Assembly (NCBI GenBank): GCA_945949175.1
Contig: CAMFDU010000013.1
Coordinates: 1 to 35,099 of the forward strand
Direction: 5' to 3'
Length of the DNA: 35,099 nucleotides
From: Gulosibacter massiliensis
GTDB lineage: Bacteria > Actinomycetota > Actinomycetes > Actinomycetales > Microbacteriaceae
Shown here piece after piece: positions 24,717-31,564 of the stretch. Within the stretch, counting starts at the first letter, position 1, and each line of letters begins with the position of its first letter. Both the position numbers and the translations under genes were made by a program. A model generated the notes under the pieces. It was not told the origin of the DNA. It made no database searches and saw only the letters and a list, made by a program, of their open reading frames with translations.

Positions 24717-25481
24717 TCAGAGTGACCGGTTATTGAGAGTCAGCGTGAGAGCGTCAACGTCCGAGACGAACAGAGCGTTATCTGACACGCGCGCTTGGAC
24801 TTCGGTGGTGAGGACGCGGACCTGCTCGGCGTTCAGGTCGTCAGCGAGTCCAAGGAACAGCGTGACATCTGGTCCTTCTCCCGTCGCGCGAGGGTCACCC
24901 GGACCGATTCCGACCTCGAGTAAGTTCTCGATGCCGTCAAGTAACGTCGTGGTCTCGGTGGCAAACGCGGCAGATTCCCATGGCGCGACGTAGGGAATCC
25001 CCTGAGCCATCGACCAGACAACGGGGCGGCGCAACGTGACCGACTCGGTTCCCGGGTTGACGACAAGCCGATCAGTCTGTTCGCTCGCTGCTGCCAGCGC
25101 AACGCGCTGGGCTTCGATCGGGATCGGGCGAGCCTCGGCATGCCAGGTTTTCATCGCCGACGCCGAGGTGAATACAGGGATCACCCTTTCCCCACTCGGT
25201 CCCGCCACGGTGACGACCGACAGTTCTTGGACTTTGTCTTCCATCACGGGATTGTCCACGTCGAAGTCGTCACCCGCGTGGGCAACGAGCGGGATGAGAA
25301 ACCTGTTGGCAGCAAAAGCGGCGACGAGGTCGGTAAAGGAATCATGTCCTGCGCGCCACTCGGCGAGGCGTTCCGCGACGTCGCTCGGCGTCTCGCCCAT
25401 ATCCCCCGCGTGCGGGTTGGGCTGAAAAGCGCGCCCTTCCCACGGGACGCCGGACGAATCCGCGTGGTGGTCGTTCGGCAC
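24717..25481 (-). CDS. SseB family protein
   Basis: This 254-residue soluble protein contains an SseB-type domain (about 45-140; FLIPLVAHAG, VIPVFTSASAMKTW) and a second beta-rich half. It starts with GTG four bases after the priA stop, the same arrangement seen in other Microbacteriaceae. Its gene stops 31 bases from the convergent Ig-like protein gene. SseB was first named as a sensitivity-enhancing protein; the biochemical role of actinobacterial versions next to priA is not known. Confidence 0.85.
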   Translation of the reverse strand: MPNDHHADSSGVPWEGRAFQPNPHAGDMGETPSDVAERLAEWRAGHDSFTDLVAAFAANRFLIPLVAHAGDDFDVDNPVMEDKVQELSVVTVAGPSGERVIPVFTSASAMKTWHAEARPIPIEAQRVALAAASEQTDRLVVNPGTESVTLRRPVVWSMAQGIPYVAPWESAAFATETTTLLDGIENLLEVGIGPGDPRATGEGPDVTLFLGLADDLNAEQVRVLTTEVQARVSDNALFVSDVDALTLTLNNRSL

Positions 25482-25485
25482 CGGT

Positions 25486-26220
25486 TCAGTCCCCGTTCGC
25501 CACCGCGAGGGCGTCGGTCAGGGTAAACGCACCGGCGTAAAGCGCTTTTCCGAGAATCGCGCCTTCGACTCCGACGTTGACGAGGTCGCGTATCGCGGCG
25601 ATATCGTCAAGCGTCGCAATTCCGCCGGATGCGATGACAGGAGTGTTGGTTCGGTTTGCGACGTCGCTTAGCAGTTGAAGGTTCGGGCCGCTCATTGCAC
25701 CGTCGGTGTCGACGTCGGTCACGATGTAACGGGAACAGCCGGCAGACTCAAGAAGTTCGAGCGTGTCGAACACGTCAGCGCCGATGTCAGTCGTTCCCCG
25801 CGGCACGAGCGTTGACCCTCGCACGTCGAGCCCTACGACCAGGCGGTCGCCATGTTCCAAAATTGCGGATGCCACCCAATCAGGATTCGCCAGTGCAGCC
25901 GACCCCAGGTTGACCCGTCTAACGCCCGCGGCGAGTGCTCGGTTCAGCGAAACTTCGTCGCGAATTCCACCCGACAGCTGAATCGACAGCGAACCGGCAA
26001 GTTCGTCTACGACGCGGCGCAGAACATCAGCGTTGTCACCCCGGCCAAACGCGGCGTCAAGATCGACGAGGTGCAACCACTCGGCGCCCTGATCGAGAAA
26101 ATCGCGCGCCGCATCGAGTGGGTCGCCGTGTGTTGCCTCGGTGCCGGTCTGACCGCGGGTTAGGCGAACGGCAAGACCGTTCGACACGTCGACGGCGGGC
26201 AAGAGGATGAGTTTCGGCAT
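25486..26220 (-). CDS. priA: PriA-type phosphoribosyl isomerase (HisA/TrpF) with altered loop
   Basis: PriA is a TIM-barrel enzyme that isomerises ProFAR (histidine) and PRA (tryptophan) in Actinobacteria. The 244 residues keep catalytic Asp11 (PAVDV), Arg19 (AVRL), the SGGIRD phosphate loop (83-88) and Asp173 (TDVDTDG). In the mobile substrate loop the usual RGW is RGT (141-143), so the tryptophan that stacks on the histidine-pathway substrate is Thr. The adjacent hisH is also degenerate. This resembles cases in genome-reduced Actinobacteria where PriA keeps only TrpF activity after histidine genes are lost. That interpretation is inference; the fold and basic identity are clear. It lies 12 bases after hisH. 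Confidence 0.9.
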
Positions 26221-26232
26221 GGTGGCTTTCGG

Positions 26233-26880
26233 TTACAGCGACTGTACCCAGTTGCGCAGAAGTTGCAGTCCAGCCTCACCAGACTTCTCGGGGTGAAACT
26301 GTGTGGCGGTCAAGGGTCCGTTCTCGACTGCGGCGATGAAACGCTCGCCGTGATTCGCGTACGTCACCCTGGGGGCGGCGAACGCGCCATAGACCTCGAG
26401 GGTCCAGGTCGTGGCTGCTGCCGAATGCTGGAAGTGGAATTGCTCGGTCTCGATGCCGTTGAACAGGGTGGAACCCGCGGCGGAATCAACGACGATCCAC
26501 CCGGGGTGCGGGACTGTCGGAGCGCCCAATTCGGTGACCACGCCTGGCCACTGAGCGAGCCCCTCGGTGTCGACGTCGCCGGCGATGGCGATGGCGCCAT
26601 CGAACAGGATCTGCATGCCGACACCGATCCCCAGGACCGGACGACCGCCCGCGAGGCGACGTTCGATGAGTTCGTCCCCGCGCGATTCGCGCAGTTGGGC
26701 CATCACGTCGGCAAACTCGCCATCGCCGATGACCACGAGTCCGTCCGCGTTCGAAATGAGGTCACGGTCACGCGTAAGAGACGCATTCGCGCCGACAGCA
26801 TCCAGCGCGGACACCAGCGAGTTCGCCTCGCCCGAACCAATGTCGAGGACTGCGATGTACGGGCGATTTTTGGCGGGCAC
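26233..26880 (-). CDS. hisH: HisH-like glutaminase subunit lacking the catalytic cysteine
   Basis: By length (215) and overall sequence this is HisH, the glutaminase subunit of imidazole glycerol phosphate synthase, which feeds ammonia to HisF. The nucleophile motif GICxGMQ reads GIGVGMQ: residue 86 is Gly (codon GGT at 26625-26623). Other conserved sites also differ: YGSGN is IGSGE (14-18), the oxyanion PGVG is IGDG (51-54), HMGWN is HPGWI (125-129) and HSY is HSA (152-154). His196 and Glu198 (HPEKSG) are kept. Glutamine hydrolysis should be lost. The frame is open and the C-terminal region is well conserved, so the protein may still be made, as a pseudoenzyme or early in decay. hisB, usually upstream, is replaced by a divergent sugar gene. 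Confidence 0.85.
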   Translation of the reverse strand: MPAKNRPYIAVLDIGSGEANSLVSALDAVGANASLTRDRDLISNADGLVVIGDGEFADVMAQLRESRGDELIERRLAGGRPVLGIGVGMQILFDGAIAIAGDVDTEGLAQWPGVVTELGAPTVPHPGWIVVDSAAGSTLFNGIETEQFHFQHSAAATTWTLEVYGAFAAPRVTYANHGERFIAAVENGPLTATQFHPEKSGEAGLQLLRNWVQSL

Positions 26881-26962
26881 GCTGCAATCCTAAGCGAGCG
26901 CGCGTCGGCCCCATTTGGCTGTTACCCGTCAATGCGCTCTCAATAGGGAACAATAGGAACCG

Positions 26963-28099
26963 ATGTCCCTTCGATTCACACACCCCCACATCGCATCCGC
27001 CGAGATGGATGCCGTGCGACGCGCCATCGAATCCGGCCACACCTGGGGTGACGGTCCGTTCACACTCTCCGCCGCCGAACAACTGACCGAGATGCTTGAT
27101 GCCGCGCATGTCGCAATTGTCACGTCGGGAACCGACGCAGCCGAACTCGCGGGAATTGTCGCGGACTTTGGGCCTGGCGACGAGGTGATCGTACCGTCGT
27201 ATCAGTTCCCGTCCGCCGGACTGTCAGTTGCTCTTCGGGGCGCAACTCCCGTGTTTGTCGACGTCGACCCGCGAACGGGGAACATCGATGTGTCCCATGC
27301 CGAGGCGGCCGTCACCCCGAACACTCGGGCGATAACGTTTGTGAATTATGCGGGGGTCACCGCGGACACGAAGGCAATTCGTCGCATCGCCGACGCACAC
27401 GACCTCATCGTCATCGAAGACAACTGTCACTCATTGGGCGGAACTGCAAACGGCGAACCGATGGGGCGAGACAGCGACCTCGTCCTGCATTCCTTCCACT
27501 CGTCGAAAAACATCTCCTGTGGCGAAGGTGGCGCACTTGTGGTCAACAACCGGAGGTTCGTTGAACGCACCGAAATCGCGCGCGAGAAGGGAACGAACCG
27601 CCACCGTTTCCTGCGCGGTGAAGTTGACCGATACACCTGGGTGGACCTCGGATCGAACTATTTGCCAAGCGACGTCCAAGGCGCGATGCTCGACGCGCAA
27701 CTCCTCGACTACGACATCATCCAGGACCGACGGATGTCAGCGTGGGCTTCCCTCAACGACGGAATAGCGGATTGGGCGAACGACTCCGGCGTCGACATCA
27801 TGGACGCGGGACCCGGCAACCATCACACCGCGCACCTCTTTTATGTGTTGATGCCCGACCAGACACAACAACGGGCATTACTCGACCACCTCGGTGCGCG
27901 GGGTGTTCCGTCGGCCACTCATTATCAACCGCTTCATTCCGCCGAAGCTGGTGAGAGATTCGGGCGCACAGTCGGTTCGTGCGAGAACGCGACCTCGTTC
28001 GCGTCGAGAATCCTACGGTTGCCGATCCACACGAATCTGTCGGCGGCAGACATCGAACTGATTGTCGACAGCGTGACGTCGTTCGAGGTCACAAACTAA
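26963..28099 (+). CDS. WecE-type sugar aminotransferase (DegT/DnrJ/EryC1/StrS family)
   Basis: This 378-residue PLP enzyme transfers an amino group to a nucleotide-linked keto-sugar. It closely resembles WecE/RffA (dTDP-4-amino-4,6-dideoxygalactose transaminase): GDGPFT near the start, DEVIVPSYQF (73-82), EDNCHS (152-157) and SFHSSKNISCGEGG, with the PLP lysine at 182; EKGTNR and YTWVDLGSNY also match. The ATG follows AGGA. It is divergent from hisH, and its stop overlaps that of the convergent BKACE gene. With the acyltransferase and glycosyltransferase nearby it probably makes an amino (later N-acylated) sugar for a surface glycan. The exact sugar is not certain. Confidence 0.9.
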   Translation: MSLRFTHPHIASAEMDAVRRAIESGHTWGDGPFTLSAAEQLTEMLDAAHVAIVTSGTDAAELAGIVADFGPGDEVIVPSYQFPSAGLSVALRGATPVFVDVDPRTGNIDVSHAEAAVTPNTRAITFVNYAGVTADTKAIRRIADAHDLIVIEDNCHSLGGTANGEPMGRDSDLVLHSFHSSKNISCGEGGALVVNNRRFVERTEIAREKGTNRHRFLRGEVDRYTWVDLGSNYLPSDVQGAMLDAQLLDYDIIQDRRMSAWASLNDGIADWANDSGVDIMDAGPGNHHTAHLFYVLMPDQTQQRALLDHLGARGVPSATHYQPLHSAEAGERFGRTVGSCENATSFASRILRLPIHTNLSAADIELIVDSVTSFEVTN

Positions 28100-28950
28100 C
28101 GACCGAGCACCGTGACCCGGTATTCGGCCGGAGTCATGACTCGGCGTCCCAGCAACTGGATTGACTGGTGAACCCGTTCTACGAGGGCCGCGTTCGTCGC
28201 CAATTCCTCACGGCGATGATCGAGGAAGATTCCGTCTTCGAGACCGACCCGAACGCCACCTCCCGCGGCGAGAGCCATCATCGTTGCCGATGTCTGTGAG
28301 TCCCCCAATCCCGCTCCGTTCCAGTGCGCGGTGGCAGGAAGACGATCGACCGCGAGACCGAGTTCCGACGGCGTTGCTTGAATCCCTGCGATGTTGCCCA
28401 GGAAAATGTTCGCAGGGAAATCGCCGACGAGAATACCTTCGCGCTGCAAAACGTGTGCGAAGTTGATCATTCCCAAATCGAAAATCTCTAATTCCGGAAC
28501 AATCCCACGGTCACGCATGATTGTGGCGAGGGCGCGGATTGTCTCGGGTGCGTTGACGGACGGGCCATCAAGGAAATTGAGTGACGACATCGTGAGCGAC
28601 GCGACCTCGGGTTTGATGTCACCGTCGAGAGCGAGAACATCCGCCCTTTTTTCAAGCTCGGAGAAGTTCCGACCCGACGTCGACACGTTGATGACGAGCT
28701 CCGGGTGACGATCGCGAACGCGGGTGATGATATCGGCGTACACGTCGCGCTCCCACGTCGGCGCACCGGACTCATCTCGTGCGTGGAGGTGTACGGCGGA
28801 AATTCCGAGGGCAACCGCAGCCGACACATCATCGGCGATTTCGGCCGGCGTGATGGGAACGTGTGGCGTCATCGCCTTGGTCGGAATCATCCCCGTTGGC
28901 GCGAGGACGATCGGGACAGGTTTCGCTAGTTCGTCGCGCAATACGGGCAT
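28096..28950 (-). CDS. BKACE (DUF849) family beta-keto acid cleavage enzyme
   Basis: Zinc-dependent BKACE enzymes condense a beta-keto acid with acetyl-CoA and split it into acetoacetate and a new acyl-CoA. The 284 residues carry the metal-binding His54 and His56 (AVHLHARDE), the N-terminal [19 protein letters not shown] segment and the GLEDGI motif near the C-terminus. The start at 28950 overlaps the acyltransferase end by 25 bases; a longer frame to 29226 would cover half that gene and is rejected. Its place inside a sugar-glycan cluster is odd: it could supply an acyl-CoA for the acyltransferase, or be unrelated. The beta-keto substrate is unknown. Confidence 0.88.
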
Positions 28951-29582
28951 GTCGTCACCCACTCCTCTACTTCTGTGAGCACTCGGGCCGGGTTTCCGAC
29001 AACCGTTGTGAATGCCGGAACGTCTTTCGTTACCACGGCTCCGGCCCCGATGACGGCACCCTCGCCAATCGACAAACGCGGAAGGACGACCGCGCCGGCA
29101 CCAATGAATGCGCCGGCACCGATCGTGATTTCGCCCGCCACGGTCACCCCAGGTCCGACGTGCACGAAGTCGCCGACCGCCGTGTGATGCCCGATCGACG
29201 CCGCACGATTGATGTTGGCGAAACACCCGATTCGAGCCCGTGCCCCCACAACGACGCCCGCGTTGACATACGCGCCGTGGCTCACGGTCGCGCTACCAGA
29301 GACCGTGGAGGTCGCGTCGATGAGAGAAACGGGGTTGTTCCAGCCCGCTGTATGCGCAGCGACCGCGCTTGCTCGGCGGGCGTTCGCCGAGCCCGTCCCA
29401 AGAACATAGTCGACGGAACGATCCGAGATGGTCGATTCCGTCACGAGGTTCGGAAGCTCGGCGTCTGCACCGCCGATGTTGTCGACACACAACGGCTCGC
29501 TGCCGGAACGGCTCACTGACTCAATCACGTCCCACACGTACGGCGCGGAAACAGCAACGATTCGCAGGTGGCGGGGAGTCAT
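28926..29582 (-). CDS. NeuD/PglD-type hexapeptide sugar acyltransferase
   Basis: This 218-residue protein has a small N-terminal alpha/beta domain (about 1-80) and a left-handed beta-helix of hexapeptide repeats (about 85-200; for example [25 protein letters not shown]), ending in the typical VVGNPARVL. Such enzymes transfer an acyl group from acyl-CoA to an amino- or hydroxyl-sugar nucleotide. An amino sugar made by the WecE-type aminotransferase would be a natural substrate. The ATG overlaps the glycosyltransferase stop as ATGA, and its end overlaps the BKACE start, so the three minus-strand genes form one operon. Confidence 0.9.
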
Positions 29583-31564
29583 GGCAGTTGTTCCATCGCT
29601 GTTCGCAGCGCACGAGGGTCGACCTCGAAACTGAGGTGCCCGCCCGCCCTGACCGCTCCAACATCAAAAAACCGCGATCCGCGGGCTGCGAGCGTTGGGT
29701 TGAGGAAAGTCACGTACCTATTCTGCAGGTTATCCGGTTTGCTCTGCACTGTCACGAGCCTCGATTCGGACGGCATAAACATCGACCAGGTGAGTGCGCT
29801 TCCCTGTTCGCCGAACATGTCGACGGTCGAGGTCGCGAGACGCAGCTGTTCGTCGAAGGTCAATAACTCGGGAATAACCTTCTCGTAGCCGAAATCCGCC
29901 GCGATTAGATCCAGTTCGAGGCGATTGGCGCATCCACCTCGAAGTCCCGACGAATCCTGACGCGCGAGGTACACCCGGCGACCCGGCGTGTGAGCCGATT
30001 CGGGCGTCAACCGCGCCACGAACTCCGACATCCATCGCGAATCCGCGCGGGCGGTTCTCGATTCAGGTTGCAGCTGCGTCGACACGATCAATTCGGGCAC
30101 TCGAACAAGGTGCTGGAGTTGTTCTTGGTGCACCCGAACTATTCGTTCAGGGGCAACCCCCAGTGCGTTCATCTGCGCAATGTCGTTCCACGGCACGTGG
30201 CTGACGAGGAACGACGTCGTCGGGTCGAATCGGTTGACCGCGTCCACGCGCGGTGCGACCTGCATCAATCCGTTTCCAAACGCACGTGACATCGTGATGG
30301 CGAGGCCGGCTCGACCTGACCGCTCATCGGTAATCCAGCCATTGATCGGAATCACGTTTTGCGGTCCGCCGAAGTATGTCCCGGCGAGCAACGTTCCGTC
30401 CTCGAGAAGAACGGAACCATTCGGGGCAACGATCGCGTTGGTGACCGAAATCAGCCACGGTCCCAGAGACCGTTCCCGCAGGACGCTCGAATCCTGGCGG
30501 CGCCACGCGCCGTTCCGAAAAAATCGATGTGCGTCCACCGTCGTGTCGTCGACGGTGTAATCCGGTCGGGAAATCACCTCGACCCCACGCGGCAGTGCGA
30601 GCCCGTCTCGTAGCGCTTCGTCCATGTCGAAACTGCCGGTGACGGTCACACGAGACGGGTCGCGCGGTGCGCGGATCGCTTTATCGACGATGGTCACGGA
30701 TGCGGTCGGTTGAGCGAACTCGGAGAACGGCAACAATTCGGGTGATTCAACGAACACCGAAGACGCGCCCGAAACGGACCGCGCGATGGCATCAACCGAC
30801 AAGCGATTGACGGCAAGTAACCGCGCGCCCGCGGATTCGTGGTCGAAACGGACGTCAACAATAGAATCGTCCCCGAGCGGCCCCCGAAGGTTGTTGTATT
30901 CCAAATACACACTGGTCGGCGTCGCGGTTGCGTCGCCCCGTAACGTTTCGGCGAAGCGCGTGACTTGCCCGTCAGCAATCGTTGGCGACGGCAATCGAAC
31001 GAACATCGCGGAACCGGTCCTGCGGGCAGCGCCCCTCGTGATTGCAAATCCGGCCAGCGTGACGCCGCACGCATTGGCCAACGTCTTGATGGGGTGGTGC
31101 GGCTTTTCTGAAAGATCTGGCACCACGACAGCGACTCCGGGGGAAAACCTTCCCAGCGTGGCAAGGCTCGGACCGATCGATTTAACAATATTGAGTCGCG
31201 TTGGTCGGACCGAGAGCAAAAACGCACACGGCGTCCCGACGTCGATGACCTCGGTCGCCTCGTCTCTATGTTTGCCTATCCCGAAGCGAGCACTGACAAG
31301 CCGCCGTCCGCCCGCCGTCACCGACCCGTTGGGAAAAACGATCGCATCCGCGATGGCGATGACGAGCGGGCCGAATTCGTCACGCTCGACAACAGTGACC
31401 GAGTCAGGCCAGTTTGTCGTCGAGTCGAGGTCCACGAAACGCAATACGGCCAGGGTTCGACGAATTCGTGAGGTCACCCTGTGAATTAGGGCGTGGTCCC
31501 GAAATGCGCGCAACGGGCTCTGTTCGCGTTGATTGGGGCGCTTCCGCTGGTCGTCGAGGCTCAC
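29579..31564 (-). CDS. GT61-family glycosyltransferase with duplicated, partly degenerate domains
   Basis: The C-terminal half (about 360-661) matches GT61/DUF563 glycosyltransferases: [11 protein letters not shown] (529-539), [18 protein letters not shown] and the nucleotide-site-like GEQGSALTW (585-593). The N-terminal half repeats the layout: [11 protein letters not shown] (72-82) corresponds to [11 protein letters not shown] (375-385; 8 of 11 identical), and a VYLEYNN...FVESPEL stretch mirrors the later motif region but lacks the glycine loop. It therefore appears to be an internal duplication with an inactive first copy. At 661 residues it is longer than typical members. No signal peptide or span is evident, so it is likely cytoplasmic. 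The start is GTG. It heads the minus-strand operon with the acyltransferase and BKACE genes. Acceptor and donor are unknown. Confidence 0.8.

Follow-up and report, generated by a model that had tools for sequence, protein, structure and literature searches.

IGP synthase is a textbook two-subunit enzyme. Its HisH subunit is represented by structures such as PDB 4gud, 1ka9 and 1gpw. A class I amidotransferase domain that was kept after replacement of its catalytic cysteine is known from human CPS1, in which the glutaminase-like S2 domain carries Ser294 (PMC4655335). Another relevant precedent is PriA, the HisA/TrpF isomerase. In the SubTrpF proteins of Actinomycetaceae (PMC5404923) and in SubTrpF2 (PMC13055916), both TrpF-specialised, loss of HisA activity is accompanied by replacement of an active-site tryptophan, Trp139Gly or Trp145Ser (Trp139 in A. 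urogenitalis and Trp145 in M. tuberculosis numbering). Neither article mentions hisH or hisF in its main text. Lastly, deletion of hisH in Corynebacterium glutamicum left growth in minimal medium unchanged, according to unpublished data cited in PMC3896937, an example of an actinobacterial hisH kept though reportedly dispensable. Literature searches retrieved no description of a HisH without its cysteine in titles or abstract openings, most subscription papers not being covered. To our knowledge, no HisH disarmed by a glycine has been described.

The window analysed here is the whole stretch of 35,099 nucleotides from Gulosibacter massiliensis (assembly GCA_945949175.1, contig CAMFDU010000013.1; genome G000, 1,243,923 bases or 1.24 Mb, 94.5% complete). 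It contains an open reading frame (Table 1) whose product resembles HisH in its profile score, its predicted fold and its ancestral place in the order hisC-hisB-hisH-priA, but has no nucleophile, has altered oxyanion and glutamine-binding motifs and is found in a genome without a HisF match. We refer to it as the Gly-type hisH. In CPS1 the S2 domain lies within the polypeptide that it serves and the enzyme still works with ammonia (PMC4655335), whereas the Gly-type HisH has no synthase partner left and carries a glycine, a replacement found repeatedly. It differs from the SubTrpF and SubTrpF2 cases in that hisH is retained beside a Trp-replaced PriA, whose TrpF activity is inferred. It also differs from C. 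glutamicum, in which HisF is present and hisH complements an E. coli hisH deletion (PMC3896937).

Table 1. Coordinates of the features discussed, as positions within the window.
Feature	Positions	Strand	Remarks
Gly-type hisH, putative HisH pseudoenzyme ORF	26233..26880	(-)	215 codons; TIGR01855, AlphaFold model, PDB folds
Nucleophile codon, residue 86, Cys to Gly (GGT)	26623..26625	(-)	
Oxyanion strand, residues 51-54, PGVG to IGDG	26719..26730	(-)	P51 and V53 gone in all four lineages
Residues 125-128, HMGW to HPGW	26497..26508	(-)	Trp retained in window copy
Residues 152-154, HSY to HSA	26419..26427	(-)	
Residue 149, Tyr to His	26434..26436	(-)	aligns with T. maritima Tyr138 (1gpw_B); Tyr gone in four lineages
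FHPE, residues 195-198	26287..26298	(-)	catalytic His and Glu intact in window copy
TAGGAT, TANNNT -10-like element (predicted leaderless-type promoter)	26887..26892	(-)	begins 12 nt before the Gly-type hisH start codon
Spacer, Gly-type hisH stop to priA start, 12 nt	26221..26232	(-)	
priA (HisA/TrpF isomerase), RGW to RGT, SubTrpF-like	25486..26220	(-)	TIGR01919 321.7 bits
SseB-domain protein, cluster gene 3	24717..25481	(-)	PF07179 76.8 bits

The initial annotation, made from the sequence alone, had read this gene as a full-length HisH with glycine at the nucleophile and changes in the PGVG, HMGWN and HSY motifs, and all of this was borne out. The frame runs from a GTG start to a TAA stop without internal stops, and its product scores 146.2 bits with TIGR01855 against a curated cut-off of 105.4. 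The nucleophile motif GIC-V-GMQ has become GIG-V-GMQ, and HMGWN reads HPGWI. Three properties expected of HisH are not met, namely the cysteine of the Cys-His-Glu triad, the oxyanion strand PGVG and a HisF partner in the same genome. The product is, as judged from these residues, a HisH relative that fails the catalytic definition of HisH; its lack of glutaminase activity is inferred, without activity data. Its closest named proteins are HisH mostly of Microbacteriaceae, e.g. Microbacterium. A contig titled Stenotrophomonas maltophilia (L060) also encodes a HisH 63% identical to it, possibly a contamination of the public assembly.

Comparison with relatives, one of the checks proposed by the annotation, found the same cysteine to glycine replacement in six further genomes. 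For these seven post-loss genomes we distinguish lineages A (G000, G004, G006), B (G011), C (G355, from another genus of the family, g11) and D (G456, G718, from another family, f6). A sequencing error at the cysteine codon, or a second, intact hisH together with relaxed selection on this copy, would have refuted the reading. The former is very unlikely since glycine appears in seven separate genomes through four different codons (GGT in G000, GGG in G004 and G006, with GGC and GGA also among the seven), a judgement made on assemblies without raw reads. The latter is set aside on the single HisH match found in G000 (94.5% complete). In three genomes (G355, G456 and G718) the catalytic His of FHPE is substituted as well, and the tryptophan of HPGW, which we take to be the equivalent of T. 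maritima hW123 at the HisF interface, is missing in lineages C and D.

A way to see which parts of the protein have been given up is to compare the four lineages with functional HisH. The baseline consisted of 86 functional sequences, 79 from named genomes and 7 from survey genomes; 80 loci had been fetched from named genomes, and one (L090) was excluded because of a stop or ambiguous base. Cysteine is present in all 79 usable named sequences, and residue 86 is Cys in 86/86 functional proteins aligned versus Gly in 7/7 post-loss genomes. Among the 74 columns conserved at 95% or more, nine are gone in all four lineages (Y14, N18, P51, V53, C86, E98, R147, Y149, V151), 25 are retained in all and the remaining 40 are mixed. 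As far as they can be placed, the nine lie in active-site or HisF-facing motifs. C86 is the sole near-invariant position at which an identical new residue, glycine, appears in all four lineages. As far as can be told from these alignments, each lineage has had its glutaminase-site and HisF-facing residues dismantled with many structural residues retained. Glycine suits the strained turn of the nucleophile. The lost Tyr149 and residue 199 align with Tyr138 and Lys181 of T. maritima, and PDB entry 2wjz is, by the visible part of its title, a HisH K181A/Y138A mutant that "displays const...", which we read as constitutive glutaminase. The loss of the Tyr138 equivalent in every lineage would then give a reason for disarming the cysteine.

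An AlphaFold model (pLDDT 91.5, pTM 0.90) of the window protein has HisH structures as its nearest PDB folds, with 4gud and 1ka9 at the top, and the protein is therefore predicted to keep the HisH type of class I amidotransferase fold. The model leans toward the functional fold because it was made from an alignment with 44 functional relatives. The products of G355 and G456 gave no Pfam family at E 0.01 and are therefore far diverged.

The loss of histidine synthesis in G000, supposed in the annotation, is well supported by genome searches. PF00977 matched PriA and, weakly, one 309-aa frame without revealing any HisF, and HisD and HisG had no match either; HisB, HisC, HisE and HisI were outside the genome-wide search. 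Within the genus, HisH was matched over its full length in 8 of the 15 genomes (at 84.9 to 204.3 bits, leaving out weaker matches of 20.7 bits or less). The cysteine is kept in G001, G007, G008 and G013, all with HisD and three with HisF and HisG (G013 is 79% complete), and the four genomes with glycine (G000, G004, G006, G011) have no match to HisF, HisD or HisG. The other seven, 61-79% complete, carry little weight; two of them (G009 and G002) have some his genes. The gene order gives further detail. In G001 an FKBP-type gene is followed by hisG, hisF and trpE; the FKBP-type gene directly adjoins trpE in G000, G006 and G011, hisG-hisF being gone, and in G355 it is rpe that adjoins trpE (the names at this locus rest partly on our own reading of the sequences). 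Since the flanking genes remain neighbours, an incomplete assembly can be discarded as the cause of the missing hisG-hisF. Stretches around the Gly-type hisH of the seven post-loss genomes contained no hisB or hisC remnant (tblastn, E 0.01, this locus only). The HisF, HisG and HisD searches did not cover G456 and G718, which are missing hisC and hisB at the locus.

Profile surveys indicated how widespread HisH is, with matches in 380 of 398 genomes of the family (E 1e-10) and 367 of 396 of the order (E 1e-8). A closer look at part of the low-scoring genomes revealed G355, with PriA and no HisF match, and the two genomes of family f6. A Cys-less HisH would escape such surveys if its score were normal, and the count leaves out other low scorers (other g21 genomes, G147, G292, G423, G455, G480, G536, G569, G583, G654, G672 and a 38.9-bit match in G257). 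Five low scorers, G034, G222, G438, G546 and G467, proved to have a HisH with its cysteine and extra residues. Cys-bearing HisH with inserted residues were noted at loci L141, L142, L189, L194 and L195, in genera from three families. Three candidates were discarded by eye, L200 and L145 as PdxT-like and L146 as TrpG/PabA-type.

A tree of TrpC, SseB, HflX and LexA, built without HisH and PriA, groups G011 with the histidine-positive G008 and G000 with G006. Forcing G000, G006 and G011 together was rejected (p-AU 7.8e-9), and with it one common ancestral loss within the genus. The tree has 9 genomes and omits G004, G013, G257 and the SseB of G007; G000 fills 44% of the columns, G355 and G019 were flagged as long branches and G150 has an odd composition. 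G004 was put in lineage A, outside the tree, by the derived motifs and neighbourhood that it has in common with G000. Lineages C and D are taken as independent because other members of their genera show normal HisH scores, and in genus g119 the three members read keep the cysteine. The seven genomes apparently represent four independent losses.

The annotation had left two readings, early decay of the gene or its retention as a pseudoenzyme with a different function, and dN/dS was among the checks it proposed. The pairwise omega is 0.163 for G000-G004 and 0.123 for G456-G718, and omega=1 is rejected in both (2dlnL 73.7 and 118.7), so that neither pair meets the expectation for a pseudogene (omega near 1). 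For comparison, functional hisH gives 0.061 (G007-G013) and priA 0.081 (G000-G006) and 0.054 (G456-G718). When a codon model was fitted to eight members of the genus, functional branches had an omega of 0.038, the post-loss clade 0.169, the G011 branch 0.105 and the stem 0.29; fixing omega=1 on the post-loss clade costs 58.4 lnL units and a single omega for all costs 14.4. These values come from our own script with the positions of G004 and G013 assumed, and are rough, given the long distances and the branches that reach the bound. The many derived active-site changes common to G000 and G004 indicate that the loss should predate their split. Early decay is thus not supported on this sequence evidence; the product of the Gly-type hisH is under protein-level purifying selection between post-loss species. 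The other reading is favoured, its role not being shown, and we think it likely that the gene encodes a pseudoenzyme with a role at the protein level. A constraint on the fold alone, without specific function, would look similar.

A slower decay, in which stops and frameshifts have simply not yet arrived after the loss of histidine synthesis, would account for the roughly fourfold rise of omega over functional HisH and for the drop in genus profile scores from about 200 bits to 145.7, 137.4, 91.7 and 84.9. It would also agree with three genomes (G019, G257 and G150) that have a TrpF-type PriA, no HisF match and a locus without HisH. This explanation appears improbable to us given that omega=1 is rejected in the two pairs, that the hisB and hisC around the gene have left no detectable remnant, that all seven frames are open and that every lineage holds the identical glycine through synonymous codon differences. 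The open frames by themselves are weak evidence of function, as neutral simulation gave a probability of no stop from 0.17 to 0.0085 per comparison.

Dissecting the gene by codon windows in G000-G004, protein constraint is strong at codons 73-126 and 163-198, and codons 1-36 are nearly neutral (dN 0.40, dS 0.48). Codons 91-126 have a low dS (0.31, with 16 of 19 fourfold sites identical) that is absent in G000-G006 and G456-G718. Synonymous sites are mostly free, including the 3' end, and a nucleotide-level constraint there (promoter or RNA) was discarded, dS not being lowered. A long antisense ORF at 26263-26946 (+) was likewise considered as what holds the frame open. Its G000 frame has 1, 4, 2 and 14 stops in G004, G006, G011 and G355, on which this idea was rejected, although the antisense frame is also open in the histidine-positive G007 and G008; it is probably a by-product of high GC.

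In histidine-positive relatives the gene order is lexA, a LysM gene, hisC, hisB, hisH, priA and sseB. In G006, G011 and G355 the LysM gene is followed by the Gly-type hisH, with hisC and hisB gone, and in G000 and G004 a block including a sugar transaminase lies upstream. The Gly-type hisH stands directly upstream of priA in 7/7 post-loss genomes and probably opens a hisH-priA-sseB operon. Its start is preceded at -12 by a TANNNT hexamer in G000, G004, G006, G011 and G355, and the same offset is found at hisC in the 3/3 histidine-positive genomes looked at (G001, G008 and G584); the background for a 4-nt offset window is 112/3540 (3%). TANNNT is the mycobacterial -10 motif, whose centre lies 7-12 nt ahead of the transcription start (PMC3898074). 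A deletion of hisC-hisB would have put a leaderless his promoter right on the hisH start.

These features could also mean that the gene is only a translated leader, priA being translated by re-initiation after its stop, with selection acting just against misfolding. The exact -12 position of the hexamer fits, as do the distance to priA (12 nt in G000, G004 and G006, a 1-nt overlap in G456 and G718) and the almost free N-terminal 36 codons. However, G257 offers a simpler arrangement, a TAAACT at -12 of priA itself with hisH missing, and the 60 nt ahead of the gene in G456 and G718 contain no TANNNT. Moreover, omega of 0.12-0.16 and windows with dN of 0.03-0.05 are strong for mere maintenance of a fold. 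A leader ORF is therefore a good account of the promoter geometry and a poorer one of the protein conservation; we regard it as unlikely, if somewhat less so than slow decay. A pseudoenzyme with a role of its own remains the reading that we prefer.

The constant neighbourhood of priA suggests where this role could be sought. The HisA-type tryptophan (RGW) of PriA is replaced in 7/7 post-loss genomes, although in G456 and G718 a loop insertion required aligning the position by eye. The window PriA, with RGT, meets the SubTrpF expectation of a replaced tryptophan and is by sequence SubTrpF-like, TrpF activity without HisA activity being inferred. TrpC was found in four of the five post-loss genomes tested (G000, G006, G011 and G355; it was not found in G004, 83% complete), and with the Trp-replaced PriA this indicates that PriA is probably kept for tryptophan. 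The G019, G257 and G150 loci without HisH imply that the Gly-type protein is not required everywhere for a TrpF-type PriA. That the protein is a partner of PriA specifically is a tentative inference without binding data, for which we would not claim an even chance. It is very doubtful that HisH has gained a separate activity or ligand, for example as a sensor or with a partner other than PriA. The changes Y149 to H, Q90 to H, V151 to D and N18 to D, each of which three lineages show in one member or more, would suit such a gain, but the gene is always directly upstream of priA and, Gly86 aside, no new residue at near-invariant positions is common to all members.

In the preferred reading, the Gly-type hisH thus encodes a HisH pseudoenzyme without catalysis that recurs across lineages and is perhaps retained because it partners or stabilises a TrpF-type PriA. 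With hisG-hisF deleted and hisC-hisB gone from the locus, hisH was left ahead of priA and sseB. Under this proposal, after loss of HisF, glycine at the nucleophile turn would disarm HisH and prevent an uncoupled glutaminase as the HisF interface loosened. Glutaminase chemistry would be lost, at the nucleophile, oxyanion strand, glutamine pocket and HisF-facing residues, and the predicted amidotransferase fold kept. The folded protein, whose expression and folding are inferred without expression data, could then support PriA, a barrel homologous to HisF, in a non-catalytic way.

In several lineages that seem to be separate, one subunit of IGP synthase outlives its partner and pathway and carries an identical change at the nucleophile, a natural experiment on the change from enzyme to pseudoenzyme. 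The recurrence in relatives suggests that the dead HisH still has a job, which adds a protein to the known specialisation of PriA after gene loss and offers a direct route to testing PriA as a hidden partner of HisH. A broader possibility, speculative and more easily doubted than accepted at present, is that HisH of actinobacteria serves, besides its glutaminase function, as a structural partner of PriA. This service alone would outlast the pathway, and HisH would repeatedly evolve to a Gly form dedicated to a TrpF-type PriA. If true, such a role could explain why C. glutamicum keeps a reportedly unneeded hisH.

The opposite situation was seen in G065 (L152, L164) and G134 (L153, L165), both 100% complete and from genus g52 of the same family. 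They have HisF and a PriA with RGW, with hisG also present in G065, but no HisH match at 1e-6, and hisB is followed directly by priA. HisF may work with free ammonia in these two genomes, and either subunit may thus persist without the other in these bacteria.

The region upstream of the Gly-type hisH in the window (26963-31564; L168, L175) is occupied by a WecE-like transaminase block, also found there in G004. It lies upstream of hisB in the histidine-positive G013 and was not seen at the hisH locus of G001, G006, G008 and G011. It is possibly a variable surface-sugar block, one gene of which is found between hisC and hisB in G007.
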